64,000 nucleotides of DNA from NCBI GenBank assembly GCA_026874595.1, contig CM049313.1:56875159-56939158 (forward strand), written 5' to 3'. This document shows positions 17,602 to 60,306 of this stretch, in pieces; the stretch's first letter is position 1, and every line of letters starts with the position of its first letter. The stretch comes from Sipunculus nudus. Its lineage: Eukaryota > Annelida > Sipuncula > Golfingiida > Sipunculidae. The position numbers and the translations under genes are program-made. The notes under the pieces were generated by a model that had not been told where the DNA came from, searched no databases, and worked only from the letters and a program-made list of their open reading frames with translations.

Positions 17602-17638
17602 TAATATAACATTCAGAGACGCTGAAAAAGTAATATAA

Positions 17639-17682
<44 letters not shown>

Positions 17683-17733: not shown

Positions 17734-17741
17734 AGATCCAC

Positions 17742-19243: not shown

Positions 19244-19287
19244 ACCCCCCCCCCCACACACACACACACACAAACTCATGCCGTCAT

Positions 19288-20207: not shown

Positions 20208-20239
20208 TAAAAGTTAAATCTGATTAGTTAAAGAAACAG

Positions 20240-22340: not shown

Positions 22341-22530
22341 CAGGGGCTGATCCATGATTTTGGAGGGGGGGGGGGGGTTCAACAGAAACGTATGAGAAAA
22401 GTTGAAACGTAAACCAAAAGAAATAAAAAAAAATGTGTGTTTTTAGCTCGTATAATATGATTTGACACCCTTCTAGAAAGAGCCTAGCGGCTGCGAACTT
22501 CCTGCCCCCCCCCCCCCGAATCAACTACTG
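22341..22530. mobile_element. hAT-like MITE remnant
   Basis: Starts CAGGGGCTGATCC followed by a G run, and ends in a C run then GAATCAACTACTG, so the ends are roughly inverted (CAGGGGCTGATYC against CAGTAGTTGATTC). No matching 8-bp duplication is seen (CACTGTGA against CATAATTT), so boundaries or assignment may be wrong. Confidence 0.35.
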
Positions 22531-23734
22531 CATAATTTGTACTATATCATCACAAATTTAACTTTGAGGAACCTTAAGTTAAAGAGGTTGGGAAGAGGGG
22601 AGGCAAATGTTTCCCATCTCTCTTTGTGTGTTTCTGTCTATACAGGTCAATACATATATTTCCCTTTACATTATCCACGACTGTATTATCTTATATCCAC
22701 GACCTGGACATTTTTTCTGTTGATAGAATCGTGACATTTAAACTGGTTATTTATGTATTTCAATGAAACAAAGATTTGTTTAGTTCTATCCAAGAGAAAG
22801 CATCCCCTCCCAATTTTATATTTTTAAACAATAAGTAGCCCCTCGCTGCGGTATCAACTAGTCTATCCCTCAGTACTTTTGAGGGAGGGTGTGAAAGAGT
22901 GGGTTTTCATCACGTGTTAGGGATTTTTTTCTCACAAAGTGATCTCATTTTTGGTGCTCTGACAACATTCAGAAAAAAGTTTCCGAAATAAGAAAAAAAA
23001 AGAGGTCAGCTGGCCTTGACGAACAAAACGCACTGAACAGGGGTATATATAGAAACTCTGCCTAGTTTAGTTAGCCTTACACATAGACTCACTGAGAGTA
23101 TATATTCTTTGTCGTCTTGAAGCTGGAGGCAGGCTTTATCAGACAAGTTTACGCCTGCTAGCTTATTGTACCTACAACTATAAAGGACCCAATGACTCGT
23201 TAATTATGTCAACCCGTTGAACCGTCTGACAAATTTAGAGAAGTCTCTTGTCATGTGAAATGAAAAGTCTACAAGCGGCGACATCTGGTGAAAATTTATT
23301 AAACTAGAAACTTATCCGTTTTACTATTACACATTGAAAGTCTGATAAAAAATAGCTTTTTATGCACTTTTCACTGTGAAATCAGCGCGATAGGGTGTAT
23401 GTTTTTCATCTTTTTTACCATTACTTTTTTATCATTACCCTGGAGTTCATAATGGTAAATTTCTACTAAAAATCAAACTAAGATTTTTATGCAAGGGGGG
23501 GGGGGGGGGGGCATGCAAGAGAAACCAGTCTTCTTGGACTTAGTATTCCTCAAATAAAAAACATTAGTTACATATTCATTACCATACTGAGTTATCCATT
23601 TCACTGAATGAAATGCGTATAGATTATCTATTTATAATATTTGCTACCCAAATACCAATACACGCACATGCATGTGTTGGAACGACGGCCCATTCGTATA
23701 TAGGCCACATGTCAATGCCGGCGAGTCATATTTT

Positions 23735-23885
23735 CACGGCAATATTAAAGGGACATGCATAATCAGGAGCAATACTATGCCTATTCTTTCACACCATCAG
23801 TTCAGTTTTGCTTCATACAAAAGTTTCTCAGCAAAACCACACAGTCTCAGCACCTCGCATACGGCTGTTTAATTGCTCTGCGTGT
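23735..23885 (-). repeat. dispersed repeat family H, copy 1
   Basis: The reverse complement matches 30795-30935 through GCCGTATGCGAGGT, TTTTGTAT, AACTGAACTGAT, GTGTGAAAGAA and ATGTCCCTTTA. Type not assigned. Confidence 0.6.
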
Positions 23886-24384
23886 TTGTAAATACAGTAT
23901 ACACGTGTATCTGTTTACCATTTAGCAAGGCCGCGTAACTGGAGGTCCGATTGTTAGCAGCAACACACGAATTTTCAGCCAGCATGAACATGTTATCCAT
24001 TTTTTTTGGGGCCAAGTCAGTCAGGACAGTTCATGATTTGCAGGTTTTGTGGCTCAGCGATGCGCACTAAGTCATAAAATAAAAGAGGCAAATCAAAAGT
24101 ATTACCCCACCCCCGCCCGACAACTGTTATGTTAGATGAAAGCCCCCTCCCCCCCCCCCCCCCCCCCCCCCCCGTCCACTTGCCTATGGTTGCCTACTAG
24201 TACTTTAATCAAGTTCTCCGTCCGTCCCTCGCGCGCATTATCTCAAGAAACGATTAAGATATTAACTGCGTTTCTTTCTCTCCTTTTTTTCCATAGAAAT
24301 GGGCTGCTGGGTCATGCATAGGCCCTATATATATCGTACTGGAAAGTGTACGGGAAATGTGTCCGATCGAGGCGATGCCTTTTG

Positions 24385-26787
24385 AGCGAACCTGTGAGCT
24401 TATGCGATGGCACAGCGTCCTCGTCCGCAGTCGTCCGTACGTCAACCCATGCTATCTCAAAAACCATTGGAGCTAGCATTACCAAATTTCATACAAAAAA
24501 TCGGTTATCTAAAAAACTCTATCGGATTTTGCTTTTTTTTGCTGTCTGCACTAACTGAGATTTTATAAGGAAAAAGCTAAAAAAAAAAAATTTAAAATCT
24601 TCTCCTCCAAAACTGTCCAGCCAAATCATTCAATATTTCACAAAAATAATCTCTGAAACTATCTCTCTCAAGTTTGTTCGAATGGTTCCAGTTCGGTGAA
24701 TTTAAGTCAAATGTACAGTTTCAGAGACGGCTGGAGCTATCCTCACCAAATTTTATGAAAATGTTCGTCACATGACTCATATATGAATTTGAGGTATTGG
24801 CGGCGCCACCTGCATCAACCTCTTCTGTACGAGGGTCATCGGGCATCAGTACATTAATTCATAATTTCTCAGGAATTGCGGGAGCTAGCATCCCCAAATT
24901 GTATGCAAAAATCTGTTACATATTAAATGTTGTGGGATTGAGCGTTTTGTGGTGCCATCTGCATTAACTTACATTTTACGGGGAAAGCTAAAAAAAACTT
25001 TGAAAGTTTCTACTCTAAAATCATTCAACCAAATTGTTCAATATTTCACAGAAATTATTCGAGAGACAGGATCTTTCAAGTTTGTAAAAATGGTTTGGGT
25101 TTGATGAATTTTAGCTGAGTTACAGAAATTTGAACTTGGTCATTTGGCCAAGTAAGCACACTGACTTAACAATCTCAGAATCGATAGGACTTAGCATTTC
25201 CAAGTTTTGTGCAAATGTTGGTCACATGACTCATATATGACATTGCAGTTTTTGTGGTGCCACCTACATCGATCAATGTTTTACGGTCGAAAACCTAATA
25301 ATTTTAGTCTCTATCAGTTTAAAAATGTTTTATGATGAAACTGTCAAGCTGAATCGTTTAATTTTCACAAGATTTATCTTAGGGTAGGGTTCTTTTAATT
25401 GTATAAGAATAGATAGAGTTTTTTTATTTTTGTTAGAGTCATAGAAAGCTGAAGTTCGTCTTGCGGCCATTTGTAAGCCTATTTCAAACTGAGGACTGCA
25501 AAAGTCTTCTTCTGCAAAACTGTTGTTTCAACTTCTGGAACATTGCACAAAAAATAATTCTTAGGAGGCCTTTTTTTCGAGTTAACTTAAATGATTGCTT
25601 ACAGAATTATTGGACCTTTAACAATGAAAGGACTACATCTTTTATTATTCTAAACAGTTTGATAAAAAAAATATTATGGATATCAGCTTGGAAAAAAAGC
25701 ATTGTAGCCAAAGTCTTTCAGTATGTGCAAACAGATTTACCTACATGCCAAGATTGAGTCTGTATCTATAAATAGCTTGACAGGCTGTCAACTATCTCAG
25801 ATTTGGCAACTGGCCAAAGGTCAGTCTGGATCTGTTTATAGCTTTGGCAGACTGCGAACTTTGTCAGATTATGCAACAGGGCAAGAGTTCACTAATTTCA
25901 GTCAGCTGCAGGTCAAGAGTTTACCTATCTATAAATAGCTTGACAGGCTGTCAACTATCTCAGATTTGGCAACTGGCCAAAGGTCAGTCTGGATCTGTTT
26001 ATAGCTTTGGCAGACTGCGAACTTTGTCAGATTATGCAACAGGGCAAGAGTTCACTAATTTCAGTCAGCTGCAGGTCAAGAGTTTACCTATCTATAAATA
26101 GCTTGACAGGCTGTCAACTATCTCAGATTTGGCAACTGGCCAAAGGTCAGTCTGGATCTGTTTATAGCTTTGGCAGACTGCGAACTTTGTCAGATTATGC
26201 AACAGGGCAAGAGTTCACTAATTTCATTCAGCTGCAGGTCAAGAGTTTACCTATCTATAAATAGCTTGACAGGCTGTCAACTATCTCAGATTTGGCTTTC
26301 TCGTTCAAAAGACTGGTGTCGCCACAAACAAAGACATTTGCACAGTGTATGTGCCTGCTTATTTCTCAGGAGGGATTTGATATATCAGCCTGAAATTTTG
26401 CATATTTATACATATCGGACTGCTGTGCGTATACAAGACTGGTGGCACCACCTGATTATTTTTTGCACAGTGTATGTCCCTGCTTATTTCTCGGGGGGGG
26501 GGGGGGGTTGATATATCAGCCTGAAATCGGGCATATGTATACATCTCGGATAGCTTTGTCGTATACAAGACTGGTGGCGCCGACTACAATCATTTTGTGT
26601 TGTGTGCACCCATGCCAGTATTTCAGCAGTGATGTTTGTGTAAGTGGTTTCTTGTTCAAAATGTTAAGTATTTGCATTGTTCATGTACAAATTACACATG
26701 TACTTGAAAAATAATGGTCCATCATTGAAGCATAATACCTGGTGTATATGCAATTGTACAGGTTCACATTAGGCCTGTATGCCTTGT
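24385..26787 (+). mobile_element. family B rolling-circle-like element, copy B1 (complete)
   Basis: Starts AGCGAACCTGTGAGCTTATG at 24385 in a TTTTG context. It ends ACAGGTTCACATTAGGCCTG then TATGCCTTGT at 26787. The 3' inner repeat (ACAGGTTCGC in B2) is the exact inverse of GCGAACCTGT at the start. AGGCCT-GT-AGGCCT in B2, degraded here, gives a 3' palindrome, and the final CTTG lies in T. A CGTC-rich segment follows the 5' end. The interior holds repeated CCAAATTTTATG and GGCGCCACCTGCAT phrases and a 163-bp tandem array. No protein of its own is detected, so it is non-autonomous. Confidence 0.66.
25767..26297. repeat. 163-bp tandem array inside B1
   Basis: 3.3 nearly identical copies, starting at 25767, 25930, 26093 and 26256. 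Each begins CTATAAATAGCTTGACAGGC and includes CAGATTATGCAACAGGGC. B2 has only a single decayed equivalent near 54055, so the array expanded in B1. Repeating open frames across it are incidental. Confidence 0.95.
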
Positions 26788-33198: not shown

Positions 33199-35332
33199 AG
33201 CTCAGCTGACTGTAAGTCATCTGAGCTTTAGCAATCACTCTTTGTGCGTCGTCCATCCGGTTGTCCGGCCATCCGTTCGTCTGTCTGTTAACAGGGCACA
33301 AATCATAACCACTGGACTTGGAATCTTCTAACTTTATGTCCATAGAGGTCTATGAAAAATCTCCTTGGAAACCTAGAATTAGTTCTCAGTTACCCGTATT
33401 CTTTGATCTATGTGGCTCTGAAGTACCCCCCAGAATAATGGAAAATTTGACACAAAAACTTAAGTATCTGAACAACTGAAGCATTGATCACCATGATTTT
33501 TAGCATGGATATTGATCATGGAGTGTTTCATCAGTTTCTGCAGACTAGTGGCGCCACCTGTTTTTTTTTCGATTTTTTACAATTTTTTTCTCTATTTTTG
33601 AGACCTTAAAAGATGTGGTCATCTGTTAACAGGGCACAAATTGTAACGACTGGACCTAGAATCTTCTGTCTTGACATGCAGGGAGGCCCATGAAAAGTCT
33701 CCTAGGAAACCTGGAATTAGTTCTCTGTTACCCATATTCTTTGAGCTATGGGGCTCTGAAGTACCTCCCAGAATAATGGAAAATTTGATACAAAAACTCA
33801 GGTATCTGAACAACTAATGCATTGATCACCATGAATCTTTGCATGGATATTGGTTATGGAGTGTTTCATCAGTTTCTGCAGAATTGTGGTGCAACCTGTC
33901 TTTTTTCAATTTTTTACGAATTTTATCTTTTTTTTTGAGACCTTAAAAGATGCGATCATCTGTTAACAGGGCACAAATCGTTATGACTGGCCCTAGAATC
34001 TTCTTGGAAACCTGAAATTAGGTTTCTGTTACATATATTTACTGAGCTATGGGGCTTATAATTCCCCCCAAAAGAATAATTGAAAATTTGATACCAAGGT
34101 ACGCTCTTTACACAGCGCTTTAAGTTTAACTATAGGCCTAGTTCCTATATTGTAAGCGCTGTTTGTTATGACCTAGTATCCTGAATTGCTGCACCAGAGG
34201 GGAGCACTGTATTTTTGTCCAATCAGGTTAGACCTTGTGCTGGAAGACTCTGCCAAGCGAGAAATACACGGAGCCAATCATGTTCTTTTCGTTTTGATTG
34301 ACAGCTCATCGCCCTGGTAACCATCTGAACAGGCCACAGGCTCAGAGAGAATTGCCCGAGACGTGGTTTTTTTAGGGCCTTGGGCACATAGGATGCCCGG
34401 CCGGTGATCTGTAATTCAAACAAAACTTAACAACAAAGGCTGCGTGCACATGCACCTCGCTGGCTGGTTTAAGTTCTGCAGACAACAGATACATGGTTAC
34501 TCTAACACAGTCATAATGCAATAATCGAATCAGTTGATGATGCGAGAATGCAGAGGGAGCAATTAAAATTTGACCGTAAACTCATCAAAGGGCGCTTAAA
34601 GTGCAGCTATGGGCGGAGCCAGGATGCCTGTCGAGTGTTTGTTTATTGGCATCTGATTGGCTGCTTGTCACATCATACGCACATATTTTTCAGCGGACAA
34701 AGACCTGCCATCTTGTGTCTAAATATATCATATAAGGTCAAAGCTGGCAGTGTGAAAATCAGATGCTTCTTTAGAAGCGCAAGATTTACACTGCCTCAGG
34801 AGCACAATACCAAAGCAGGGCACAAATCATAACCATTGGACCTAGAATCTTCTATTTTGACATCTAGCGAGGTCCGTGAAAAGTGTTCTTAGAAACCTGA
34901 AATTAGGTCTCTATTACCCATATTCTCCAAGGTATGGGGTTTATAAAACACCCCTCAGCATAATTGAAATTTTGATACTAAAGCAGGGCACAAATCATAA
35001 CCATTTGACCTAGAATCTTCATACTTGACATTCTGAGAGTTCCTAAAAGTTCTCCTCAGAAACCTGAATTGAGGTCACTGTGACCTATACTATCTTGGTT
35101 ACAGGCCATGTTTGAGCACCCCAGAAATAATGCAAAATACACACAAGTTGCCAGATTCCTCAGGAACAGCTGGATGGATTGTCATCAAATTTGATGTGCT
35201 AATTGGTCTTGATGAACTTCAGCTAATATGCATGAACTATGATGCCACCTACATTATCTTAATTTGTTTACTGTGCAAGGACACATTGTCAACTTGCCAG
35301 TCGGCTGAGTGTCATGACCAATGGGTCACTTG
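33199..35332 (+). mobile_element. family A rolling-circle-like element, copy A2
   Basis: Starts AGCTCAGCTGACTGTAAGTC in a T6 run and ends TCGGCTGAGTGTCATGACCA then ATGGGTCACTTGT in a T run. Both termini match family A with several changes. The interior is a 337-bp tandem repeat (units from 33288, 33625 and 33962, each beginning TTAACAGGGCACAAAT), with shorter related units at 34816 and 34985. It includes AGTGGCGCCACCTG at about 33547. A separate 709-bp element is inserted at 34098. Confidence 0.62.
34098..34806. mobile_element. 709-bp insertion with 7-bp target duplication
   Basis: Splits a repeat unit of A2. ATACCAA is present at 34091-34097 and again at 34807-34813. The neighbouring uninterrupted unit near 34970 reads GATACTAAAGCAGGGCAC, which serves as the empty site. 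Ends GGTACGCTCTTTACAC and, inverted, TGTGCTCCTGAGGC show no convincing TIR. A GCTTCT-TT-AGAAGC hairpin lies near the right end. The 94-codon frame at 34548-34832 crosses the boundary and is not credible. Element class unknown. Confidence 0.68.
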
Positions 35333-35392: not shown

Positions 35393-38300
35393 AGCTCAGC
35401 TGACTATAAGTCATCTGAGCTAAAGTCGTGGTCCTTTGTCCGTCGTCCGGCCGTCTGTCCGTTAACAGGGCACGTTTTAAAACCGTTGGACCTAAGAATC
35501 CTAAATTTTGCATACCATTAGGTGTTCCCAAAATCTCCTACCATACCAAAAATTGGGTCATTAGGACTTGGTTCCTTCGAGATATTAAGGAAAAACCTCC
35601 GTTTTTCCATAAAAAAGCCATTGTTACACTACAAGGCTGGCTAATATCAAAACCACTGATCTGTTCTTGGTCATATTTAGTATTCATATTCTTCCATACA
35701 TTTTCTATGAACATACCAAAAATTAGGTCAGTATTGGGTATTATTTTGAAGTTATGGGCCAAAATATAATGCAATTTTTAAAAAAATCAGGAAATATATT
35801 TACTCACCTAACATGAGAATTGCAGAAACTGGACACTTTTTTTCAGGAACATAACTTTATTTAATCAAGATTCAATTATTTACCCAAAATTAGATCTGAA
35901 TTTTGCAAATTTTTCAAGTTATTAGCATAAATAAAAAATTAATACCTTAAATTTTGTCCAACTTTGGGAATGGCACGTTTTTTCTCTGTAAGCACTGTTG
36001 ATTTAATTTTCACAGCATATATACATAAAGATTTAATCTTTTAAAATCTGAAATTTCAAACGAATTGATTGAAAAGAGTAGCTTTTATTCAAGTTTTCAT
36101 ACACCATGTCAAGTGTTGTTCACATCTGGCCCACCTAGTAGAACAGCCATCACTTGCATTATGTAACCCACCCCAGGCAGCTTGCCTCAGGCTCAGCTTG
36201 GCCACAACTAGCAGGCTTCCCCTCTGCCCAGCACTCCCCAACCCCCCAACCCTCTTATTCTAGGCTATGCTACATTTTAGATTTTGTATTGTACCACCAG
36301 GGTTACAATGATTAAAGTGCACATTTAATAGTGTCCACAAAGTGGTGTATTGCTATGAAAGTGTGGATGTTCATCAGATAAGTAATTCCTTACTTCAGAA
36401 AAGTAAAAACTTCACCAGGTGTGAAATTGACTATTAATTCCAGTAATAAATTATAGCTGAGATTGTAAATAGCATAATGATATTGTTTGTCCCTCATTCA
36501 ACCAAAAGTGTGTATACTTTATTTGAAAAGATGTTTTTATTTTATCAAATTTACTGAATCTTTTATTTTATTTTGGTGAATAAAATTAAGCATGTACTGA
36601 AAACTTCAATGTGCAAAACTTTTTAATAGTGATTCAAGGAATAATCTTGTAGATGCCATGTTGTGGCATTATTTTCTTTTAAATTCAGTTTAAACATTTG
36701 TGATTAAAAAATAATAAAATATATGTGTATGCATAATATGACCCAATATGAGCTACACTCTGGATATATAATGATTGTAACTTAGAATTCTAATATTTTA
36801 ACTTATATTTTCAGTTGTTTTATTACAAATTTATAAAACTTGTAAAAAAAATGAATCAGATTTAAAACTATTAATGGAAAAAGTGGATATGCTAAAAAAT
36901 AGGCTTATATATAAACTTAAATGCATTATTCCCTTGAAAGTGAAATAAATGTATTAGTCCATTCTGTCCACTTGCCTGTCCATCTGTAAATTTTTCATAT
37001 GCATCACAGTATCTCAAAACTTTTACTGTTTCCTCTATATAGTTCCTATGTATGTGCCAGTAATTTAGTCAGTATTATATAATTTAAAAAAGTTATAATT
37101 TAAAAATATGTTTTCAGAAAAAATTAAATACATCTGTGTTTTGTATTAAATATATATTTTCATACTTCAGGACTGCCGAAAAAAAAAAAACACTCATCTG
37201 GTTTTCTTCATATTAAACATAAATATTCCTCTATATAACTTAAATTTTGCCCAAGTTTGACCATGGCATGTTTCTTTCTTGTAAGAACATTTGATTTACT
37301 TTTCACAGTCGATATATATATAGATTTAATCTGTTAAATTCTGAAATTTCAAAGTAAAAGCTTAAAAATTGTTCTAGTTATTGAAGTTTTTCTGAGGCTC
37401 TAATGTATTTTCATTTTGAACCTCCAGACCAACCATGTCTGGTCCCTACAGCCTTGCCTGGGTAAACTTATTAGTGATTCAACACTGCTGTCACAAATGT
37501 AGAATCACATGGCTACCACCCCCCTCCCCCACAGATATGTTGTATTAGTTACATACTTTAATTGCATTGCTGTTTCTGATCCAATTTATACAACTTTTCC
37601 TGATCAAGTGTTATTTTCCGATATTTATTATTTTGCAAATTTAAAAAAAATATATTTTAAGAAAAAATAAATACATCTGTGTATATAATGTGATGTTGAC
37701 TGAGCAGATTAACTGTAAATGTTGATGCAATTTAGAATTGTTAATCAACTTAAATTTTCATTATGAATAAAACTTTTTTTTACCTGTAAGATTAAATTTT
37801 GTATCCTGTATGTTTATGCAAAGGTGTTGTAACTTTCCTCACTCCCTGCCACTGAGTATTTGTTCAGGACAATATTCTTCTGGCAACTGTATAACATTTA
37901 TAACTGGTAAATAAAGAAATAAATATACAGAGTTACAAAGGTGTTTTTAAACTCTCATCCTCCCCCCCCCCCCCCCCCCCCCCCAAATCAGGTCAAACAG
38001 CTGAGTCCCCATGCAACCCTTCACCACCACACAACACCAGATTTTGAGTCATCTCTTCTCTATATTCACACTTAGACTCAGTCACTTCAGATTGTTTTCC
38101 TCTATAGGTCACCCGCAGGTCCCATCAGTAACTTCTTCTCTGAACTCCCGTTAGTCTCTCAAGTTGACCTCAACCTGCTTATAGTGATCATGGGCGATTT
38201 CAATATTGACATTTCTAATATAATATATAACATCAAATTGACACAATTATGTCAACTCTTTAAATGTCAACAACTAGTCAGAGAACCAACAAATGACCAA

Positions 38301-38829
38301 GCAAATACCATAGATCTTGTCTTTACTAACTGTTTAAATGCTTCAGTTTCAACATTAGAAAACATATGGTCAGATCACAAGTTATTATTAACAACAATCC
38401 CCCATTCTTCAATTCAGATCAAACATGGCAACTTCCCACAGCTTAATCTACAATTTCTTCTCTATAGATACTTTTTGAGACATTCTGTTTCCTCTCTAAT
38501 TCAGCAACAACTGCTTCCCAAATCATATAAGTTTTCTGTTCCTCTGTAAATATTTTGATTTATTAAATGTGTATTTTTATACTTGCAAATGTCCACTTCC
38601 TTCCTCTGCAATTTACAACATCTGGTCATTCCCATTGCAATATTTTAGACACACATTCTTGTTCATATTTAAAATACTGATACTTCTATATAACTATTCC
38701 GCTCAACTACATAATTAATACAAAAAATTACATCTGTCAAAATGAAATCTTACAGACCTGCATACAAAAATAGTGACACAATTATATCTGTCTCATTCAG
38801 CTGAGCGCCGTGACCCATGGGTCCCTTGT
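35393..38829 (+). mobile_element. family A rolling-circle-like element, copy A3 (longest)
   Basis: 3.4 kb. Starts AGCTCAGCTGACTATAAGTC in a T7 run, with the 5' hairpin (TAGCTCAG...CTGAGCTA). A GTCC/GTCCG segment follows, then blocks starting TTAACAGGGCACGTTTTAAA and ACCTAAGAATCC shared with other copies. It ends TCAGCTGAGCGCCGTGACCC then ATGGGTCCCTTGT. The inverted pair AGCTCAGCTGA/TCAGCTGAGC and the 12-bp palindrome GACCCATGGGTC are intact. It carries the best EEP remnant (38085-38549) and a C23 run (37962-37984). Confidence 0.66.
38085..38549 (+). pseudogene. EEP (AP-endonuclease-like) domain fragment inside A3
   Basis: The frame reads LQIVFLYRSPAGPISNFFSE, then MGDFNIDI, FKCQQLVREPTND, TIDLVFTN and SDHKLLLTTI. 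YR.P...FF.EL, GDFN, TIDL.FTN and SDH are the ordered C-terminal motifs of the EEP endonuclease used by CR1/L2 retrotransposons and by Helentron-type rolling-circle elements. The N-terminal half of the domain is absent upstream. After SDHKLLLTTI the frame degenerates and stops at 38549. It is non-functional. The same region survives in A1, so the domain belonged to the ancestor of family A rather than to a chance insertion in one copy. Confidence 0.75.
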
Positions 38830-45056: not shown

Positions 45057-47990
45057 AGCTCAGCTGACTATAAGTCATCTGAGCTATAGTCATGGTCCAT
45101 TGTCCGTCGTCCGTCCGTCCGTCCGTCTGTCCGTCCGTCTGGATGTCCGTCCGTAAGACTAGCACGTTTCGACACCGTTGGACCTACGAATCTGAATTTC
45201 GGCATACAGTTAGATGTCCCCATAATCTCCTACCATGCCAAAAATTCGGTCAGTAGGACTTCGTTCCTTTGAGATATTAAGGAAAAACCTCAATTTTTTA
45301 TTAGAAATCTATTTTCACACTTCAGGAATGCCTAATATCAAAACCACTCATCTGGTTTTCTTCATATTTACCATAAATATTCCTCTATATAGTTCCTATG
45401 TACATGCCAGATATGAAGTCAGTATTATATAATTTAAAAAAGTTATGGGCCCAAACATAATGGACTTTGTAAAAAAATCAGTAAGATATTTGGTCACTTA
45501 AGACCAAAAGTGTTAAAGGTAGGGACTTTTTTTCAGTAATACAACTTTAATTAATAAAAATTTAATTGTATACCAAAAATTAGATCAAAATTTGTTAAAT
45601 ATTTTCAAATATTGGCAAAAATATAAAATTGGTACCTTAAATTTTGCCCAACTTTGGCCATGGCACGTTTTTTTCCTGTAAGTACTGTGGGTTTAATTTT
45701 CACACCATGTATACATAAGGATTTAATCTGTAAAAATCTGAAATTTGAAAATAAAAGCTGCAAAATTAGGCTAGTTATTGAATTTTTTTGGAGGCTCTTG
45801 TTGTATTCCCTTACATTGTCAGGCAGTCCACTTTGATGACTGTAGGTCATTCAGTGCACATCTCTATGCTCCCCAGGCTGTTGACATAATTTTAGATGTC
45901 CCCAAAATCTCCTACCATACCGAAAATTGGGTCATTAGGACTTTGTTCCTTCGAGATATTAAGGAAAAAAAACTCTGTTTTCCATAAAAAAGCCATTGTT
46001 ACACTTCAAGGCTGCCTAATATCAAAACCACTGATCTGTTTTTGATCGTATTTAGTAATCACATTCTTTTATACATTTTCTATAAACATACCAAAAATTA
46101 GGTCAGTATTGGGTATTATTTTGAAGTTATGGGCCAAAACATAATGCAATTTTTAAAAAAATCAGGAAATATATTTACTCACCTAACATGAGAATTGCTG
46201 AACCTAGAGACTTTTTTTTCAGGAATATAACTTTATTTAATCAAGATTCAATTGTTTACCCAAAATTAGATCTGAATTTTGCAAATTTTTCAAGTTATTA
46301 GCATAAATAAAAAATCAATACCTTAAATTTTGTCCAACTTTGGCACTGTTGATTTAATTTTCCCAGCATATATGCATAAGGATTTAATCTTTTAAAATCT
46401 GAACATTCAAAAGAAATTGATTGGAATGAATAGCTTTTATTCATGTTTTCATACACCATGTCAAGTGTTGTTTACATCTAGCCCACCTAGTAGTACAGCC
46501 TTCACTTGCATTATGTAACCCACCCCAGGCAGCTTACCTTGGCCCAGCTTGGCCACTACTAGCAGGCTTCCCCTTTGCCCTGCACTTATCCCCCCCCCCC
46601 AGCTGGTGCATAAACTAGATGAATGTTATAATTTTTCTGTATTTTATTTTATTCTTGAACATGCTACATTTTAGATTTTGTATTGTACCACCAGGGTTAC
46701 AATGATTAAATTTACTTTTCAAAATTACTTTTATTTTATTTTGGTGAATAAAATTAAGCATGTCCTGAAAACTCCAATGTGCAAAACTTTTTATTGTGAT
46801 TCAAGGAATATTCTTGTAGATGCCATGTTGTGACATTATTTTCTTTTAAAATCAGTTTAAACATTTATGATTGAAAAATAATAAAATATATGTGTATGCA
46901 TAATATGACCCAATGATTTTTACTATGTATATATAATGATTGCAACTTTTGCAACAATTCTAATATTTTAACTTTTATTTTCAGGTTTTTTAATTAAAAA
47001 TTTATAAACCTGTAAATAAAAAAAATGATTCAGATAAAAACTTCTTAATGGAAAAAGTGGATCTGCTTAAAAAAATAGGATTATATTTAAACTTAAATGC
47101 ATTATTCTCTTGAAAGTGAAATAAAGGTATTAGTCCATTCTGTCCACTTGCCTGTCCAACTATAAATTTTCGTATGCAACACAGTATCTCAAAACTTTTA
47201 CTGTTTTTCTTCATGACAGTCCTGTCAGAGTATTAGTTTGCAATCATATATTTAGAACTTTACTATAACCAAGTAGGAGGGCCCCTTTCCTCTTAGCTTT
47301 TCATATTCTTATATAAATTAAAAAACATTACAATAGAATATTTCTACATCCACCTTCGTGCTGCCCTCACTTTTCCCTTCTCCGAACCCCATCCCAAAGT
47401 CAGCCTCAGTAAGCAAGAACAAGATGAATCAGATATATTCATACTTTAATATTTTGTATAACTATTCGTCCATAGGTACCTATGTACATGCCAGAAATTA
47501 TGTCAATATTGTGTAATATGTAGACATAGTGGGCATCACAAGAATGTACCTTGTCAAGACTAAAGAGATATTGTGTCATACAGTCACATATTAATAAATC
47601 ACTTCATCAGCATAGTTAATCATAACATCATATCTGTCAAATTGAACGCCTGCAGACTACCATACACTTTAGATCCTTCAACAAATAGCCTTATTATCAT
47701 TCTACTACTGCTTATTACTGCTGTCATTGCATTTATATTTGCTCAAATATATCACAATTTTCAACCCCTCCTAAATATATAAAAAATAAACCACTTTATT
47801 TGACTCTATTAATCCATCAGTCAGGTAATTTCATTTATCATTTACTCACATATTACATTACATTCCTTTATAATAGCCTAACATGTACATGATATTCATA
47901 AGCTTTATCGACTCGATATAGTATCACAGTGGAGAAACATTTATAGTCCAATCACGATCAGCTGAGCGCCGTGACCCATGGGTCCCTTGT
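45057..47990 (+). mobile_element. family A rolling-circle-like element, copy A4
   Basis: Starts AGCTCAGCTGACTATAAGTC in a T5 run, followed by (GTCC)n at 45100-45150. It ends TCAGCTGAGCGCCGTGACCC then ATGGGTCCCTTGT. The internal block with AGATGTCCCCA(A/T)AATCTCC is present twice (about 45211 and 45895). The second half is collinear with A3 (for example CACCAGGGTTACAATGATTA). No EEP is evident, so that part is deleted. Confidence 0.66.
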
Positions 47991-50789: not shown

Positions 50790-51109
50790 GTGAGTGTTGC
50801 TTTGAATTCATTAAAGAATCATTTATGGGTCTGTGGGACAAACTGACATATCATATAACCCTTTCATTAGAAAAACTCCTGATTGGAATTTTTCTGTTCT
50901 TGATAGAATTTACATCTTTAAAATAATTTGATCTTTCATGCAATCATTAGCGAACCTGTGAGCTTATGCGATTGCGCAGCGTAGTCCGACAGCTGTCGCC
51001 GTCAAGGCCTGGCTTTTAGCCGTCCATGGCTGTATGTCGGAAACCCTCGGAGCTAGCAGCAGTAAGAATTAGTCACATGTGAAGCTTGGTGCCCTGGAGC
51101 TTATTATTG

Positions 51110-52850
51110 TATCCCCAGACAAAGTCGGGGTATACTATGTTTTCATACCGGTCCAGCCGCCGCTGCATATAAATCTTGTTTGCGCGATAACCCAAAAAAT
51201 ATTTCATGGAACTTTACCAAACAAGGTATATGTATAAATATGGGTAAGAGGACGACGCCTATTTAAAATGAGGTCATGACCTTTACTAGGAGAGTGTCCT
51301 TGACCTTGAATAGGTCCAATTTTGGGGGAAATCACACAAATTCTTTAATATCTCAAGAAATCTTGCATGGATTTATCCCCAAATCAAGTTGATGGAAGAT
51401 CATAGATAGGGTTGTCATGTTTCAGGAACTGGTGGCACCACCTATTATTCTTTACTTGTTTTCGTGCCGTTTAATACCCCCAAAATTGTCACCTTACAGT
51501 ACTGTGAGCATTATAAGTAAAAAACTAATGGACAAATTTCTTTTATATTATGCATATACATAGGTATGGGTTATGGGATGATGTTTATTTAAATTGGGGT
51601 CATGACCTTTCCTATGAGAGTGGCCTTGACCTTGAATATTGCCATGTATGGTGAAAATCACACACCTCTTATGATATCTCCAGTGTTGATAGCCATATGG
51701 ATTTCAAACATGACTTATGTATGGCCCACCACTAAAGTAAGAACCCTATAGGTTCTAGGGTCATGAGGTCAAAGGTCCAGGTCACTGGACTGGCATTTTA
51801 AAAGATACTGTGGATGCATTTTAAGCCAAACTTTCATCCCAGGTCTTTCATCTTGCACATATAGTTCACCTGCCAAGAGTGGAAGACCCATATCAATTTT
51901 GAGGTCACAAGGTCAAAGGTGAAGGTCACAGGAGCCATCTGTCCAAAAATTAGTTTCTGGATGATAATTCCTGCTTTTATTGTTGTATGGATTTCAAACT
52001 TGACTTGTATATGTCCCATTGGAAAAGCAATGCCCAAATTGATTTTGGGGTCATGAGGTCAAAGGTCAAGGTCACATGACACATCTTTAAAAAGATTGTG
52101 TATGCATTTTCAGCCAAACATTTCATCTCAGATCTTTCATCTTGCACATATAGTTCACCTGCCAAGAGTGAAAGACCCTTATCAATTTTAAGGTCACAAG
52201 GTCACAGGTGAAGGTCACAGGAGCCATCTGTCCAAAAATTAGTTTCTGGATGATAATTCCTGCTTTTATTGATGTATGGATTTCAAACTTGACTTGTATA
52301 TGACCCATTGGAAAAGCAAGACCTGAATTGATTTTGGGGTCATGAGGTCAAAGGTCAAGGTCACAGGAAACCTCTTTAAAAAGATTGTGGATGCATTTTC
52401 AGCCAAACAATTCATCTCAGATCTTTCATCTTGCACATATAGTTCACCTGCCAAGAGTGGAAGACCCATATCAATTTTGAGGTCACAAGGTCAAAGGTGA
52501 AGGTCACAGGAGCCATCTGTCCAAAAATTAGTTTCTGGATGATAATTCCTGCTTTATTGATGTATAGATTTCAAACTTGACTTGCATATGTCCCATTGGA
52601 AAAGCAAGACCCGAACTGATTTTGGGGTCATGAGGTCAAAGGTCAAGGTCACATGACACATCTTTAAAAAGATCAAGGTCACAGGACCAACATCTTCAAC
52701 CAGATTGTGGATTGTTAGATGGAAGAAACAATAAATATGCCAAGTGTCAGTATATGCTGCTAAAAATGGAGGCCTATTCTTAAAGGGGGGGGGGGGGCCT
52801 ACTATGTCTGGGGATACTCTGGCACCTGCGGTGCCAAGAAATGTCTAGTT
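51110..52850 (+). mobile_element. family C rolling-circle-like element nested in B2
   Basis: Starts TATCCCCAGACAAAGTCGGG. The inverted partner TATGTCTGGGGATA lies at about 52803-52816, followed by the perfect palindrome GGCACC-TGC-GGTGCC (52821-52835) and a tail AAGAAATGTCTAG then TT. B1 gives the empty site: the CTGCA(T/C)TAA(T/C)TTAGATTTTAT sequence resumes right after. The interior is a 290-bp tandem array. No coding region; non-autonomous. Confidence 0.68.
51680..52700. repeat. 290-bp tandem array rich in AGGTCA motifs, inside C
   Basis: About 3.4 units; TTGCACATATAGTTCACC recurs at about 51852, 52142 and 52431. Each unit has two AGGTCA-type clusters. AGGTCAAAGGTCA, a direct repeat with 1-bp spacing, is perfect at 52056-52068, 52345-52357 and 52633-52645. 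Confidence 0.9.
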
Positions 52851-54318
52851 GGGTATCTGCATTAATTTAGATTTTATAAGAGAAAAAGCTAAGAAACCTT
52901 TAAAAATCTTCTCCTCCTAAACGGTCAAGCCAAATTGTCCAATATTTAACAGAAATTATTCCTGGAACAATCTCTCTCAAGTTTGTTTGAATGGTTCCAG
53001 GTCAGAGATTTTTGGCCGAGTTACAGGTTGAACTTAGTCTTCTGTCCAAAAAAGCACACTAAAATTAAAATCTCAGAAACAGCCGGAGGTATCATCACCA
53101 AATTTTATGCCAGTGTTGGTCACATGAGTCATATATGAAATTCAGGTATTGGTGGCGCCACCTGCATTGACCTTTTTTTGTACGGGGGTCATTGGTCATC
53201 TGTACATTAACCCATAATATCTCAGGAATAGCAGGAGCTACCATCCCAAGATTTTATGCAAGAATCTGTCACATACCAATATTGTGGGATTCAGCTTATT
53301 TTTTTGCTATCTTCATTTACTTAGATTTTATAGGGAAAAAGCTGAAAAACTTTTAAAAGTCTTCTTCTTGTAAACGGTCCAGCCAAATTGTTCAATATTT
53401 ATCAGAAATGATCCCATAGGCAGGCCCTCTCAAGTTTGTTCAAATGGTTTGCATTTGATGAATTTTAGTGGAGTTACAGGAATTTGAACAGTCAATTGGC
53501 CAAGTAAGCATACTGACAGTGTAATCTCAGAAATGACAGTAGCTAGCATTACCAAGTATTGTGCAAATGTTGGTCACATGACTCATATTTGAAGTTGCAA
53601 ATTTTGTGGTGCCACCTACATGGACCTGTTTTTTTATGGACAAACCCTCATAATTTTAGCCTCTTTCGGCTTAAAATGATTATGATGAAGCTGTCAAAAT
53701 GAATTGTTTAATTTTTCAAAAGAATTATCCTAGGACATGGTTCTTTCAGTCATATCAGAAAACTTAAGTTGGTCTTATGGCCATTATCATGTCTATTTCA
53801 AACTGTGGACTGCCAAACTGTTCTTCTTCAAAATTATTGTTTCAACTATAACATCTGTAACATTGCACAAAAATTATTCTTAGGTAGCCTTTGTTCAAGT
53901 TTACTTGAATGATTTTTGGCAGAATTATTGGACCTTTTACAATGAAAGGACTGCATCTTTTATTATTCTAGATATTTTGATAAAAAAAAAGCATTTTAGC
54001 CAAAGTCTTTTAGTATGTGTAAACAGATTTACCAATAGGCCAATATTGTGTCTGTATCTTTAAATAGGTTGAGAAACTGCCAATTCAGATTTGGCAACAG
54101 ATCAAGAGTTCATTCAGTGGAGCCAGATATAGGTCAAGACTTCAATCAGTGCAGCCAAGCACAAGGCACGTGATCACCTCATGGGTGACATGTGAACACC
54201 TCATGGGCACCATGTGATCACTTCATGGGTGTCATGCCCCTGAGGGCAGGGCCCCTGCATGAGCTTATGCAATGGTGTGGCTACTATTTCAGATTTGACA
54301 GCAGGCTGGAGGTTACTT

Positions 54319-54600
54319 CTAATATATTATGCACTGTAATTGACATATGAAAAATGTTTTCAGTATTTTAACACTGATTGGTTATATATAGTTCACAGGT
54401 AATATATTTATAAATATTAACAGAATATTATAATATTAATGTAATAATAAACATTAATTTGTACAGTTATGTAATAATTATTAATGTAATAATTTACATA
54501 AATTTTTATTTTTATTTTTGGTATTCATTGATTATTACTTGCACCTTTGATGTGATTCATGTGGTCTACAGCATTCATATCATACCAATTATTTGTTGAA
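54319..54600. repeat. left arm of a large inverted repeat (D)
   Basis: The sequence AATATATTATGCACTGTAAT, TTGACAT, AAAAATGTTTTCAG and TATTTTAACACTGA(A/T)TGGTTAT reappears in inverted order at 57540-57802, continuing at 59768-59810 after A6. A5 lies between the arms. Element class unknown. Confidence 0.62.
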
Positions 54601-54621
54601 AATTAATTAATCTTTATTTTT

Positions 54622-57117
54622 AGCTCAGCTGACTATAAGTCATCTGAGCTAAAGTCGTGGTCCATTGTCCGTCGTCCGTCCATCTGTCCGTCCATCCGTC
54701 CGTAGATGTGGCACGTTTTGAAACCGTAAGACCTGGGATTCCAAAATCGGCATAATGTTAGATGTCCCCAAGATCTCCTACCAAGCCGAAAACTGGGTCT
54801 TTGCGACTTCGTTCCTTTGAGAAATTATGGAAAAACCTCAATTTTTTATTAAAAACCTATTTCACACTTCAGGACTGCCTAATATAAAAACCACTCATCT
54901 GTTTTTCCTCATATTTACCATAAATATTCCTCTATATAGTTCCTATGTCCAGGCCAGAAATTATGTCTGTATTATATAATTTAAAAAAGTTATGGGACCA
55001 AACATAATGCATTTTGTAAAAAATCAGGAAAGATATTTGATCACTTAACACAAAACTTGTTAAAGCTGTGGACTTTTTTCCAGTAATATAACTTTAATTA
55101 ATCAAAATTAAATTTTATACTCAAAATTAGATCAAAATCTTTTAAATTTTTGAAATATTAACAAAAATAAAAAATTGGTACCTTAAATTTTGCCCAACTT
55201 TGACCATGGCACGTTTTTTCCCTGTAAGTACTGTGGATTTATTTTTCACAGCATGTTTTTTTTAGCATTTTGTCTGTAAACACCAAAAATTTGAAACCAG
55301 TTGATCAAAAACTGTAGATTTTATTCAAGTTATAAGCACCATGTAACATATTGTTTACATCAAGCTAGTGTTATGCAGTTTGCAAGAGCTAAGCTCCCCA
55401 GTTTCAGCTCTCAGTTCCTTAAATTTGGCATACAATTAGATGTCTCCAAAATCCCCTACTATGCCAAGAATTTGGTCACTAGGACTTAATACCTTCGAGA
55501 TATTAATGAGAAACTTCATTTTTCCATAAAAAAACCCATTGTTACACTTCAAGACTGCCTAATATCAAAACCACTTATCTGACTTTAATTATATATAATA
55601 TTTATATATTTTTCTATACATTCTCTATGCACATGCCAGAAATGATGTCAGTATTGCCTAATTGCCATAATTTAAGTTAGGGCCCAAACATAATGCACTT
55701 TGTAAAAAATCAAGAAATATGTTCACTCCCTTAACAAGGGGATTGCTGAAGCTAGAGTTTTTTGTCAGGGATGTAACATTATTTAATCAAGATTCAATTG
55801 AATACCCAAAATTAGTTCTGAATTTTTCAAATTTTATAAGTTATTAGTATAAATATAAAATTAGTACCTTAAATTTTGCCTAACCTTGACCATGGCAAGT
55901 TTGTTTCCTGTGAGCACTGTTGATATAATTTTCATATCATAAAGACATAAGGATTTCAGCTTTGTAGTTTAGAAAGCTGAAAGAAATTGGCCAAAAATTG
56001 TAGCTTTTATTAATGTTTTTATGAGACCATGTCAGACCTTGGCTCTCTCCAGCCCCTCTTGATTCACCTGTATGTTGACCTTGTTGAACTTTCAGCAAAT
56101 TATGCATGCTTGAGGTGAGGCATTCACTGGGGCAGCCAGGCAGCTTAAGGCCAGCCACAGTTGATCCAGGTGTCCAACCAAACTCATCTAGTAGTTTTAA
56201 CCAACAACATAACAATGAACAATAAATTAATATTTTTTTTTGTTTTTAATAACAAATTAAAGAAAAATAGAAAAGGAATTTGTTAGTTTATAATAACAGG
56301 AAATTAACTTGCAGTTACTGATGATATAAGAATCTTGTATCAATGGATAGAATGTCACATATTCCAAATAACACCATGCAGTATTTTTCAGTTCAATTTT
56401 TATGATAAAAAGTAAATCATATTAGTCATTACTAATCATTTGGGATCATATGAAGGAAATCAATGATAGACAGATGCAGTTGATAATATTAATCTAGATT
56501 CCTACTGTGTCTGGTGTGTACATTGATGTGAAATTAGTCCAAAATGAATATATTACATTTATTTTTTTTAATATAAATAAAAGCCATAAAACCAGGTACT
56601 TATTATCATTATTTAAATTTGTGAATTTTGTATATTCTGGATTCTCAACATCATTGTTTGGTGAAAACTATATAAATACCAGACATGGTGCAAATACTTT
56701 GCAATTGTATTAAAATACGAATATGAATATGTACTGCATTATAAAATTTCTTGCATAAAGAATGGGAATTCAGGTAAAAATGAAAGTATATGAATACCAG
56801 TGCAAATACTTTCAAAATGTATTCATGAATGCATTCATTAATATATTCTTTAATATTATTTTAATAATCATTTCAGTTATATTTAATTTTAAAAAATCAT
56901 ATGATTCTCTTATTATTTTCAATAAAAATTATATTTGGGACAATATTTGTAATTTTTTTTAATAAATAGTTAAACTCTTATATTATATGTTCTGCTTATA
57001 AGTTATATGGCCAAGTCAAAATCTATGTGACAATAGTACTACATTTGTTAATCATTTCTAAATCATATTTTTTTATCATATATAACAGCTGAGCGCCGTG
57101 ACTCATAGGTCCCTTGT
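54622..57117 (+). mobile_element. family A rolling-circle-like element, copy A5
   Basis: Starts AGCTCAGCTGACTATAAGTC in a T run and ends CAGCTGAGCGCCGTGACTCA then TAGGTCCCTTGT. The 5' hairpin and (GTCC)n follow the family pattern. The GATGTC(C/T)CCAA(A/G)AT(C)TCC block is duplicated (about 54761 and 55440), making it about 530 bp longer than A6. The 3' halves of A5 (56200-57117) and A6 (58720-59767) are highly similar. Confidence 0.67.
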
Positions 57118-57540
57118 TTTCCCAGTTTTCTTAACAACCTTGGAGTTGTAAAATTCACCAATATTTTTTACAAAAAAAATTTTTATTGTATTTAATATAT
57201 GGGCAATTAGAGAGTAACAAGAGGTATACTGAAGCACATTTATGAGATAAATTTATGAAGAGCAAATCTAGGAGAAAAGTCATCCACTTGCATATTGAAC
57301 TAATCATAGTTCGATAAATCAATAGATCGATAGCTAGATAGCTAGATTAGATAGCTAGATTATAGCTAGATAGACAGATAGATATTACTTCACTATTAAA
57401 AGAGTATATTACACATTGTACAGTATTATATCATATCAGAAAAAGTATGATTTCTAGATTCATAGATTAATAGATCGTTTATGAATGTAAACATGCATTG
57501 AATTATATTGTTATATAATAAATGAGTTATATTCAGTCTC
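57118..57540. other. gene-free spacer with GATA/TAGC microsatellite
   Basis: AT-rich interior of inverted repeat D; a degenerate TAGATAGC/GATA microsatellite lies at about 57312-57390. Confidence 0.6.
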
Positions 57541-57802
57541 CTTTTGTCTTTTTAAATTACTACATTATTAATATTACTAATACCAATTTCACTTCAAATT
57601 AATAATGAAAACAAAATTATTATGTAAATAATCAGCAGCAGCCCACATCATATATCACTTAAATAAAAATCCATTTCCAAAAATAATGTTAATTATTACA
57701 TTAATATTATAATATTCTGTAAATATTAATAAATATATTACCTGTCAACTATACATAACCATTCAGTGTTAAAATATTGAAAATCTGACTGAAAACATTT
57801 TT
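57541..57802. repeat. right arm of inverted repeat D (first part)
   Basis: Reverse complement of the left arm at 54319-54600; continues at 59768-59810 beyond A6. The uninterrupted left arm shows the pre-insertion sequence. Confidence 0.6.
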
Positions 57803-59767
57803 AGCTCAGCTGACTATAGGTCATCTGAGCTATAGTCGTGGTCCATTGTCCGTCGTCCGTCCGTCTGTCCGTCCGTCCGTCCGTCCGTCCGTCCGTCCGT
57901 CCGTAGATGTGGCACGTTTTGAAACCGTAAGACCTAGGAATCCAAAATTCGGCATAATGTTAGATGTCCCCAAGATCTCCTACCAAGCCGAAAACTGGGT
58001 CTTTGCAACTTCGTTCCTTTGAGAAATTAAGGAAAAACCTCAATTTTTTATTAAAAATCTATTTTCACACTTCAGGACTGCCTAATATCAAAACCACTCA
58101 TCTGTTTTTCTCATATTTACCATAAATATTCCTCTATATAGTTCCTATATACATGCCAGAAATTATGTCTGTATTATTTAATTTAAAAAAGTTATGGGCC
58201 AAAACATAATGCACTTTGTAAAAAATCAAGAAATATATTTACTCCCTTAACAAGGGCATTGCTGAAGCTAGAGATTTTATTGTCAGGGATGTAACATTAT
58301 TTAATCAAGATTCAATTGAATACCCAAAATTAGTTCTGAATTTTTCAAATTTTATAAGTTATTAGTATAAATATAAAATTAGTACCTTAAATTTTGCCCA
58401 ACTGTGACCATGGCACGTTTGTGTCCTGTGAGCACTGTTAATATAATTTTCATATCATGCACACATTAGGATTTCAGCTTTTTAGTTTAGAAAGCTGAAA
58501 GAAATTGGCCAAAAATTGTAGCTTTTATTAATGTTTTTTATGAGACCCTGTCAGACTTTGGCTCTCTCCAGCCCCTCTTGAGTCACCTGTATGTTGACCT
58601 TGTTGACCTTTCATCAAATTATGCATGCTTGAGGCGAGGCATACAGGAATCCAGGCAGCTTATGGCCAGCCACAGTTGATCCAGGTGTCCAACCCAACTC
58701 ATCTAGTAGTTTTAACCAACAACATAACAATAAACAATAAATTAATAAATTTTTATTGGTTTTGAATAACAAATTAAAGAAAAATAGAAAAGGAATTTGT
58801 TAGTTTATAATAACAGGAAATTAACTTGCAGTTACTGATGATATAAGAATCTTGTATCGATGGGTAGAATGTCACATATTCCAAATAACACCATGCAGTC
58901 ACCTATGGAATTTTTCAGTTCAATTTTAATGATAAAGAAGTAAATCATATTATTCATTACTAATCATTAGGGATCATATGAAGGAAATTAATGATAGACA
59001 AAGATGCAGTTGATAATATTAATCTAGATTCCTACTGTGTCTCGTGTGTACATTGAAGTGAAATTAGTCCAAAATGAATTTTTTACAGTTATTTTTTAAT
59101 ATAAATAAAAGCCATAAAACCAGGTACTTATGATCATTATTTAAATGTGTGAATTTTGTATATTCTGGATTCTCAACATCATTGGTTGGTGAAACTAAAT
59201 AAATACCAGACATGGTGCGAATACTTTGTAATTGTATTTAAATACGAATATGATTATGTACTCCATTATAAAATTTCTTGCATAAAGAATAGGAATTCAG
59301 GTAAAAATGAAAGTATATGAATACTCGTGCAAATACTTTCAAAATGTATTCATGAATGCATTCATGAATATATTCTTTAATATTATTTTAATAATCATAT
59401 CAGTTATATTTCATTTAAAAAAATCATATGATTCTCTTATTATTTTTTATAAAAATTATATTTGGGACAATATTTGTAATTTTTTTTAATAAATAGTTAA
59501 ACTCTTATATTATATGTTCTGCTTATAAGTTATATGGCCAAGTTAAAATCTGTGTGACAATAGTACTCCATTTGTTAATAAAATAAATGAAATCAATCCT
59601 CTTCCCTGTCTCCAAAGGTACTATCAAAATCATACATAAGCTAAACAACAACAACAACTCATAATACAGCTTATATTTATTACCACAAAAAACCAGCATG
59701 TGCCTCATTTCTAAATATTTTTTTATCATATATAACAGCTGAGCGTCGTGACCCATAGGTCCCTTGT
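57803..59767 (+). mobile_element. family A rolling-circle-like element, copy A6
   Basis: 1.97 kb. Starts AGCTCAGCTGACTATAGGTC in a T5 run, with a long clean (GTCC)n at 57855-57904. It ends CAGCTGAGCGTCGTGACCCA then TAGGTCCCTTG. The inverted arm at 54319-54600 serves as an empty site and places the insertion in a T tract with no longer target duplication, as expected for rolling-circle insertion. No EEP remnant. Confidence 0.7.
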
Positions 59768-59833
59768 TAATTGAAAAATGTCAATTACAATGCATAATAT
59801 ATTGAAAAAATTAGATTAGATCACTATTTTATT

Positions 59834-60094
59834 CTTGCCTAGGCAGATTTAAAACTCGCCTAAGTGATATCAGGCAGATTTTAAACTCGCCTGGATGATA
59901 CCAGACGGATTTTAAACTTGCCTAGATGAGATTAAAATCCTGGCCTGCTCCAAGATGGATTTTAATCTCGCCTAGGTGAGATTACGATTGTGATCTCGTC
60001 TAGGCGAGTTTAAAATCTGTCTAGGCGAGATCACAATCGCAATCTCGTCTAGGCAAATTTAAAATCGGCCTGGATTTCAATCTCGTCTCTGACA
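59834..60094. repeat. TGACA-ending arm of family E
   Basis: Degenerate units of GCCTAGGCGAGTTTAAAATC and GAGATTGCGATTGTGATCTC type end in CTCTGACATATATA. The B2 sequence resumes immediately after the TA-rich end (compare ATACATCTCGGATAGCTT at 26538). The matching TGTCA-starting left arm is not found nearby, so this is a solo arm. Confidence 0.6.
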
Positions 60095-60306
60095 TATATA
60101 TCTCTGATAGCTTGCCAGTTACAATCATTTTTGTGTTGTGTGCACCCATGCCAGAATTTCAGCAGTGATGTTTGTGTAATTGTTTCTTATTCATAATGTT
60201 TAGTACGTGCATTGTTCATTATATGAGAAGTAATGGTCCAGCATTGAAGCATTATACCTGGTGTATATCCCAATGCACAGGTTCGCATTAGGCCTGTAGG
60301 CCTTGT

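Follow-up and report, generated by a model that had tools for sequence, protein, structure and literature searches.

The stretch of Sipunculus nudus DNA analysed here, 64,000 nucleotides long and called the window below (C8:56875159-56939158 of assembly G000, which totals 1,426,538,692 bases), carries copies of three families of rolling-circle-type transposable elements, here called A, B and C. Families A, B and C are non-autonomous elements of the Helitron2/Helentron type, similar to those named HINE, and in the window and in the best-covered part of the genome they share the strand on which they are inserted. Six copies of A have both ends in the window, and B shows four 5' ends, three of them with a matching 3' end. 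The features are as follows.

1..2303, minus strand: family B element, with its 5' end at 2303 and no 3' end found within the window
4290..6076, minus strand: family A element with both ends and an endonuclease remnant at 4359-4625
9554..10158, minus strand: short family B element with both ends
10159..24384, no strand: interval of the orientation switch, with elements on the minus strand to its left (3/3) and on the plus strand to its right (8/8)
24385..26786, plus strand: family B element with both ends
33199..35332, plus strand: family A element with both ends, internally diverged
35393..38828, plus strand: family A element with both ends and an endonuclease remnant at 38076-38546
45057..47989, plus strand: family A element with both ends
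50949..60305, plus strand: family B element, host of a nest; 5' end AGCGAACCTGT..., 3' end ...ACAGGTTCGC ATT AGGCCTGTAGGCCTTG; flanked by ATT on the left and TT on the right
51110..52848, plus strand: family C element inside the host B; 5' hairpin; at the 3' end an asymmetric terminal inverted repeat (ATIR), a hairpin and CTAG followed by TT
54622..57116, plus strand: family A element inside the host B, both ends present
57803..59766, plus strand: family A element, both ends present, in the right arm of a foldback-like palindromic repeat inside the host B

The host B copy is laid out as A-GCGAACCTGT ... ACAGGTTCGC-ATT-AGGCCTGTAGGCCTTG followed by TT, and the C copy within it as TATCCCCAGACA ... 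TGTCTGGGGATA-CTCT-GGCACCTGCGGTGCC-AAGAAATGTCTAG followed by TT, with three tandem repeats of 289 nt in its interior. A preliminary description of the nest had assigned each family a pair of end motifs, and all of these pairs were found where it placed them. The palindromes that it gave for B and C are as described, whereas that of A carries one or two changes in both copies of the interval it cited (GACTCATAGGTC, GACCCATAGGTC); the perfect form, GACCCATGGGTC, occurs in copies 35393-38828 and 45057-47989. The endonuclease remnants of A copies 35393-38828 and 4290-6076 sit just inside the 3' end. The remnant at 38076-38546 matches PF14529 (E 3.5e-5, 24.1 bits, under the cut-off of 27.4), and the remnant at 4359-4625, which alone gave no Pfam endonuclease match, has 52% identity to it across 65 residues. 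The foldback-like repeat within the host B has arms at 54321-54620 and 57680-59803 (104 nt, 92% complementary); an arm was considered as an empty site of A copy 57803-59766 and set aside as not clean, with 8 extra bases.

The ends of family C are sharp in the genome. Its 5' junction reads ATTG/TATCCCC in 15/15 places, one of which is the window copy and three of which come from one tandem array. At its 3' end TT follows in 21/22 places and TC in one, with unrelated DNA beyond, and among the 20 places first examined the element ends in CTAG in 19 and in GTAG in L004. An empty site of C was provided by a minisatellite of ~55 bp on contig C1, with CATATAATTAGTATT as the intact unit and CATATAATT-G(TATCCCC...CTAG)TTAGTATT as the occupied site, and the pairs L002/L063 and L008/L059 agree with this reading. 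Comparison of empty and occupied sites therefore gives A-TT as the target of C, with TT ending on both sides. Insertion of C thus involves either a 2-bp duplication or a TTG...CTAG element placed between A and T, a 2-bp TT duplication being indistinguishable from Ts borne by the element. The B paralogues of the window had also been tried as empty sites of C and were too diverged, and the genome copies gave clean ones. At L066, L067, L006 and L007 (C1:1.407-1.422 Mb), C stands in the ~55-bp minisatellite and has subsequently been multiplied in tandem units of ~2.8 kb.

Family A has TT after its 3' end in 13 of the 14 listed places, and all six 5' ends in the window are preceded by at least five Ts. 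For B, TT follows the 3' end in 9/10 and precedes the 5' end in 8/9, where the row L057 is the B of the window itself. No target duplication longer than 2 bp was seen among the copies of A, B and C examined. The preliminary description had named constant target duplications of more than 1-2 bp as a ground for rejecting its reading, and these copies thus give no such ground. Elements are nested in several orders (A holding B or C, a C holding another C, a B holding two further B, and, in the window, a B holding C and A). The loci L063 and L071 both have a B copy at almost one and the same position within an A element, which points to a target hot spot or to an amplified composite.

All three families have a palindromic sequence at the 3' end. 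In the window copies of A and B this palindrome lies directly before CTTG, without the canonical CTRR terminus, and targets are T-rich; in C the end is composed of a hairpin, 8 nt and CTAG. The distance from the 3' copy of the ATIR to the 3' end is 22 bp in A, 19 bp in B and 32 bp in C, and relative to the range of ~20-30 bp of Helitron2/Helentron elements, whose ATIRs are 8-15 bp long, A lies inside, and B and C just outside. At the 5' side, A has a hairpin, AGCTCAGCTGAC-TATAA-GTCATCTGAGCT (z score against shuffled sequences -4.77), with a GTCC microsatellite next to it. C also has one (z -2.73), and for B folding of two copies revealed none (z 0.08 and 0.44). When 3' ends were folded, only C was clearly better than shuffles (z -2.91; B, -0.93 and -1.41). 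The three families therefore share a plan in outline, with two sub-plans. The preliminary description had proposed one plan for all; the outline is indeed common, but B is without a 5' hairpin and C has a Helitron-like tail and an A-TT target. Two further families were seen beside these. The fourth (TATCCGCCAAAACAGAGTTTTGCGGATAC; L003, L012, L073, L075 and L086) has the junction of C, with ATTG before TATCCGCC in 5/5, and a different 5' hairpin; a fifth, candidate family (L049/L053 and L056) has TATGCCCCCGCCACAAAGTGGCCGGGGCATATAG following a T run.

Genome-wide counts of these ends are large. The 3' ends were searched with up to three mismatches for A and B and up to two for C, and the 5' ends of A and C with up to three. 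These searches gave 13,002+13,041 = 26,043 3' ends of A on the two strands, 5,881+5,751 = 11,632 of B and 2,758+2,807 = 5,565 of C, together with 1,338+1,374 = 2,712 5' ends of C. The 5' pattern of A differs from its own reverse complement by 5 bases, and some of its 19,887+20,282 = 40,169 places may be counted on both strands. For all counted ends the strands are balanced genome-wide, and the control with the reversed pattern, run beside each count, gave 0 in every search. A generic scan for ATIR, hairpin and CT(T/A)G before T was rejected as stand-alone evidence, since shuffles yield many matches: with a 9-bp repeat the window has 38 against 10-28 per shuffle in ten dinucleotide shuffles, with 10 bp 18 against 2-9, and many matches of the window are (AT)n. 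Chance is thus excluded for A, B and C by their thousands of genome copies and the empty controls, whereas the signature alone proves little. No ends of A or C were found in the viral contigs searched; a search of viral contigs with the endonuclease returned a single stretch (L001), judged spurious from its frames.

Since this anatomy is that of oyster HINEs and of Helitron2/Helentron elements, A, B and C add to a class already published, and the Helitron2/Helentron-type ends suggested in the preliminary description (matched ATIRs, 3' palindrome or hairpin, T-rich target, nesting) were found in them. Several mutually unrelated HINE families in one genome are already described for Crassostrea gigas (PMC7492417). 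The Cg_HINE elements, as described there, have a 5' subterminal inverted repeat (subTIR) with a complementary inverted repeat, a 3' subTIR with a palindrome and insertion into TT or oligo-T, and they resemble family A in a GTCC microsatellite in the left module and family C in central tandem repeats (PMC7492417). They differ in their sequences; moreover, that account assigns them no autonomous partner, while for A the 3' end points to a probable one, and it treats orientation within elements and not along chromosomes (PMC7492417). The description of Helentron, DINE-1 and HINE elements in PMC4067079 likewise includes a Rep-Hel-EN partner, subTIRs, a 3' palindrome, TT insertion and T runs at the boundaries. 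In contrast to that description, family B is without a 5' hairpin, and the 3' ATIR of mite HINEs lies 38-60 bp from the end, compared with 22 bp in family A (PMC4067079). In Helitron2, as outlined in PMC3627910, the 5' copy of the ATIR lies 0-2 bp and the 3' copy ~20-30 bp from the respective end, and 5' hairpins like those of A and C are present. Helitron2 is said in PMC4067079 to lack an endonuclease, which the probable partner of A has.

Candidate helpers of these families were sought by their Rep and endonuclease sequences. A genome search with the remnant at 38076-38546 yielded 7,362 candidates with 150 scored matches among them, and an independent search for the Helitron Rep domain gave 143 matches; the remnant as a query of PDB sequences gave weak matches to unrelated proteins only. 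Two Rep matches, C3:10575424 (L049) and C7:70980080 (L051), are followed 3.3 kb downstream on the same strand by endonuclease matches with 85% and 84% identity to the window remnant. In the C3 locus (L052), a piece of PIF1 helicase (4.7e-12) precedes an endonuclease open reading frame (6.4e-8) in another frame. The A copy 35393-38828 has 92% DNA identity to the Helentron locus at C3:10.58 Mb across 527 bp. The A-type 3' end itself is present in the probable helper loci, with 0 mismatches in L054 and 1 in L052. The C3 and C7 loci are 98.8% identical over 655 bp, up to 2 bases from the A-type 3' terminus; they differ by one base near this terminus and have no match beyond it. Downstream of a third Rep of the same clade (L047) come an endonuclease piece and an A-type end with 5 mismatches (L084), in which GACCC..GGGTC has become GGCCC..GGGCC, a paired change. 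Judged by its 3' end, by the coding remnant and by the order of the two, A probably has its own helper clade.

Where aligned, the C3 and C7 loci are ~96-98% alike over a stretch that begins at C3:10560900 or further upstream and runs up to the 3' end. The A helper may accordingly be an element of 19 kb or more, or its 5' side may lie within a larger duplication. These two A-type Helentron loci (stretches L053, L055, L068, L069 and L087) share at least 19 kb upstream, including repeated coding units, RQDDAYRAQERLSQQKQK. An open reading frame upstream in these loci matches Herpes_teg_N (1.4e-9), and we take it to be akin to the OTU-protease open reading frame of Helentrons. Such a frame has been reported for Helentrons in PMC4067079.

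Two narrower alternatives concern the identity of the families and of their helpers. The preliminary description had suggested that one replication machinery serves all three families, which would mean that a single RepHel protein mobilises A, B and C alike. A common ground plan, concordant strand choice and nesting in several orders would all suit such a protein, but the end sequences of A, B and C are unrelated and the A 3' end sits on one Rep clade. No ends of A, B or C were found in 4 kb (L070) or 3 kb (L082) downstream of two copies of the commonest Rep clade (the most frequent among the 30 best Rep matches), which also codes for helicase and endonuclease (L070). Hence, a single machinery seems to us improbable. 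Outside the Rep clade of A, the search downstream of Rep matches covered five stretches (L070, L082, L083, L085 and L086), none of which revealed a RepHel element ending like B or C. The RepHel element with identical ends proposed as a check thus has a probable counterpart, by the 3' end, in the Rep/endonuclease loci with the A 3' end, but none was found for B or C. Alternatively, family C may be a canonical Helitron (Helitron1), leaving only A and B as Helentron-type. Its 3' side answers to the canonical description, with a hairpin (~11 nt from the end in canonical Helitrons), an 8-nt spacer, a CTAG tail of CTRR form before T, and A before the TT target as in A^T. However, its start is not the canonical TC, since ATTG stands before TATCC at 15/15, and it carries a 5' hairpin as well as an asymmetric inverted repeat of 13 bp. 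Elements that combine traits of the two classes have been published for oyster, where 257/751 TC..CTAG elements with subTIRs are called possible Helitron/Helentron intermediates in the pertinent section of PMC7992393. C shares with those the CTAG tail, the hairpin and the ATIR, and differs in starting with TTG or TATCC and not with TC (PMC7992393). We regard assignment of C to Helitron1 as unlikely, though a more serious contender than the single RepHel protein.

The strand of insertion is common to A, B and C, a feature absent from the preliminary description. Within the window, all elements to the left of 10.2 kb are on the minus strand (3/3) and all to the right of 24.3 kb on the plus strand (8/8). 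In the rest of the genome, orientation was taken from lists of the best-matching copies, ~100 places per search, which are dense on contig C1 only, and the counts that follow refer to these listed places. On C1, 69 of 70 places between 64 kb and 1.153 Mb are minus, and all 15 between 1.237 and 1.422 Mb and all 22 between 6.745 and 7.294 Mb are plus. Among cross-family pairs, which share elements, the same strand was found in 75/83 at 6-20 kb, 145/166 at 20-50 kb, 219/276 at 50-100 kb, 375/494 at 100-200 kb, 503/760 at 200-400 kb, 1007/1677 at 400-800 kb and 1048/2642 at 0.8-1.6 Mb. The fitted decay length of agreement is 276 kb.

This agreement was retested after the two ends of one element had been merged (187 elements of A, 100 of B and 146 of C). 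The nearest neighbour of another family at 3-20 kb then agrees in 109/118, and on C1 0-21 Mb 340 of 406 cross-family pairs at 3-100 kb agree. A coordinate-shift null for the latter gave 0.506 +/- 0.074 with a maximum of 0.764, and the observed value was reached by 0/2000. When labels were rotated for eight pairs of lists, no rotation reached the observed value for five of the pairs, and 2/91 rotations did so for the pair B3-C3. Small loci with two families agree in 12/13, with L007 as the exception; most of these are C1 loci, L060 being from C12 and L061 from C14. In the minus domain of C1, 18 flanks of 16 sampled insertions are nearly all unalike, and these are therefore separate insertions. 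Insertion strand is thus common to A, B and C over neighbourhoods of ~0.3 Mb on C1 0-21 Mb, and a common strand is also seen in the window and in the small loci. The fourth family agrees in orientation in 4/4 loci on C1; the fifth agrees in L056 and is opposite to the surrounding Helentron in L053.

A possible mechanism can be outlined as follows. A Helentron Rep protein would nick at the 5' end of the element, one strand would be peeled off until the 3' palindrome and ATIR stop the peeling, and the single strand would then be joined into a T-rich target. The neighbourhood may exert its effect by way of some process with a direction that leaves one strand exposed, and the movement of germline replication forks is the likeliest candidate. 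Replication forks fit because they are directional over hundreds of kb and could act on unrelated single-strand transposons. The account as a whole, with three Helentron-type HINE-like families, a common strand set by the neighbourhood and fork direction as its presumed cause, is the best explanation that we have, and we give it a probability of about 0.8. The more specific proposition, in which the families insert almost exclusively on one strand per ~0.3 Mb domain and single-stranded intermediates join the strand exposed by germline forks, is held tentatively, at somewhat less than even odds.

Transcription is the main rival to replication as the source of this orientation. Insertions may favour one strand of transcribed units, or selection may remove the other orientation in introns, and other elements are known to undergo selection on their orientation within introns. 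Concordance is highest below 50 kb, which is also gene scale. However, agreement is still 375/494 at 100-200 kb, and the run of 69 minus places in 70 covers C1 0.064-1.153 Mb, while over 1 Mb neighbouring genes do not usually keep a common orientation. Transcription consequently appears to us an unlikely source, yet one to be taken seriously. Orientation domains may otherwise be artefacts that arose when segments were duplicated or when composite elements were amplified as units. The C tandem array at C1:1.408-1.422 Mb, with units of ~2.8 kb, and the similar site of B within A in L063 and L071 would suit such an origin; but alike flanks were limited to L002/L063 (one insertion), L075/L076 (one repeat, at a different position) and L005/L071 (23 nt), and 209/270 pairs on C1 0-21 Mb still agree after removal of 0-1.2 Mb. 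Duplication is therefore a poor candidate. Strand asymmetry of the target may also be considered, because targets are T-rich on the element strand and domains of AT skew could then set orientation. In unmasked window DNA, the ratio of TTTTT to AAAAA left of the switch is 21:32, where elements are minus, and this direction fits; right of 24.4 kb it is 123:136 despite 8/8 plus elements, and such modest skews cannot yield ratios like 69 to 1. Disfavoured in the window, target asymmetry is the least credible of these sources.

Several observations weigh against the replication-fork account or the Helentron assignment behind it, the fitting skew left of the switch among them. As single-stranded DNA, the 3' palindrome of A folds no better than shuffles (z 0.59 and 1.01). 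The helper frames read for A are interrupted, helicase was seen in one A-type locus (C3), and the 5' end of the helper was not found within 19 kb (C3) or 21 kb (C7) upstream of the 3' end. Cross-family pairs that share elements are not independent, and the orientation comparisons took in the rolling-circle families and Rep/endonuclease positions only. Two of the list pairs, A3-C3 and A3-C5, fail rotation nulls when taken alone, with the observed value reached in 7/91 and 12/84. Genome-wide, positions of the A endonuclease relative to Rep agree in 2/4 at 5-100 kb and 10/17 at 100-300 kb, and Rep-Rep pairs agree in 10/17 at 20-100 kb, neither lending support. Endonuclease-endonuclease pairs agree in 5/6 at 20-100 kb and in 2/7 at 100-300 kb. 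Rep and endonuclease positions thus do not show the common orientation, possibly because many are old, broken and clustered.

Two other repeats of the window lie apart from these families. A 351-nt inverted repeat with 96% identity and (TA)n runs (40209-40559 / 42027-42377) is perhaps an element with long terminal inverted repeats, and 12047-14113 is a long minisatellite array with a unit of ~36 bp and several frames open.

A precedent for orientation set by the chromosome exists in bacteria, where insertion of IS200/IS605 elements (IS608, ISDra2) follows the direction of replication, as set out in PMC5371812. A, B and C resemble these in having orientation by chromosomal domain, with domains known for contig C1 and the window. 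They differ in that their ends are unrelated to those of IS200/IS605 and that a link to replication is inferred for them (PMC5371812). For Helraiser, the relevant parts of PMC4778049 and PMC5876387 describe single-strand cleavage and integration and mention no strand bias. We found no report of a common strand choice for Helitrons in the open-licence full text of PubMed Central.

With these results a bivalve-type HINE family gains a probable autonomous partner; in oyster, the corresponding link was reported as unresolved (PMC7492417). If the orientation rule applies genome-wide, it bears on how eukaryotic rolling-circle transposons find their target strand. If it is true, copies should keep a record of the direction in which some germline chromosome process ran, and this record could be read in any genome rich in such elements. 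Moreover, if replication forks set the strand, tens of thousands of copies would preserve in their orientation a fossil map of germline fork direction, and the switches of orientation, for instance at 10.2-24.4 kb of the window, would be likely origins or termination zones.

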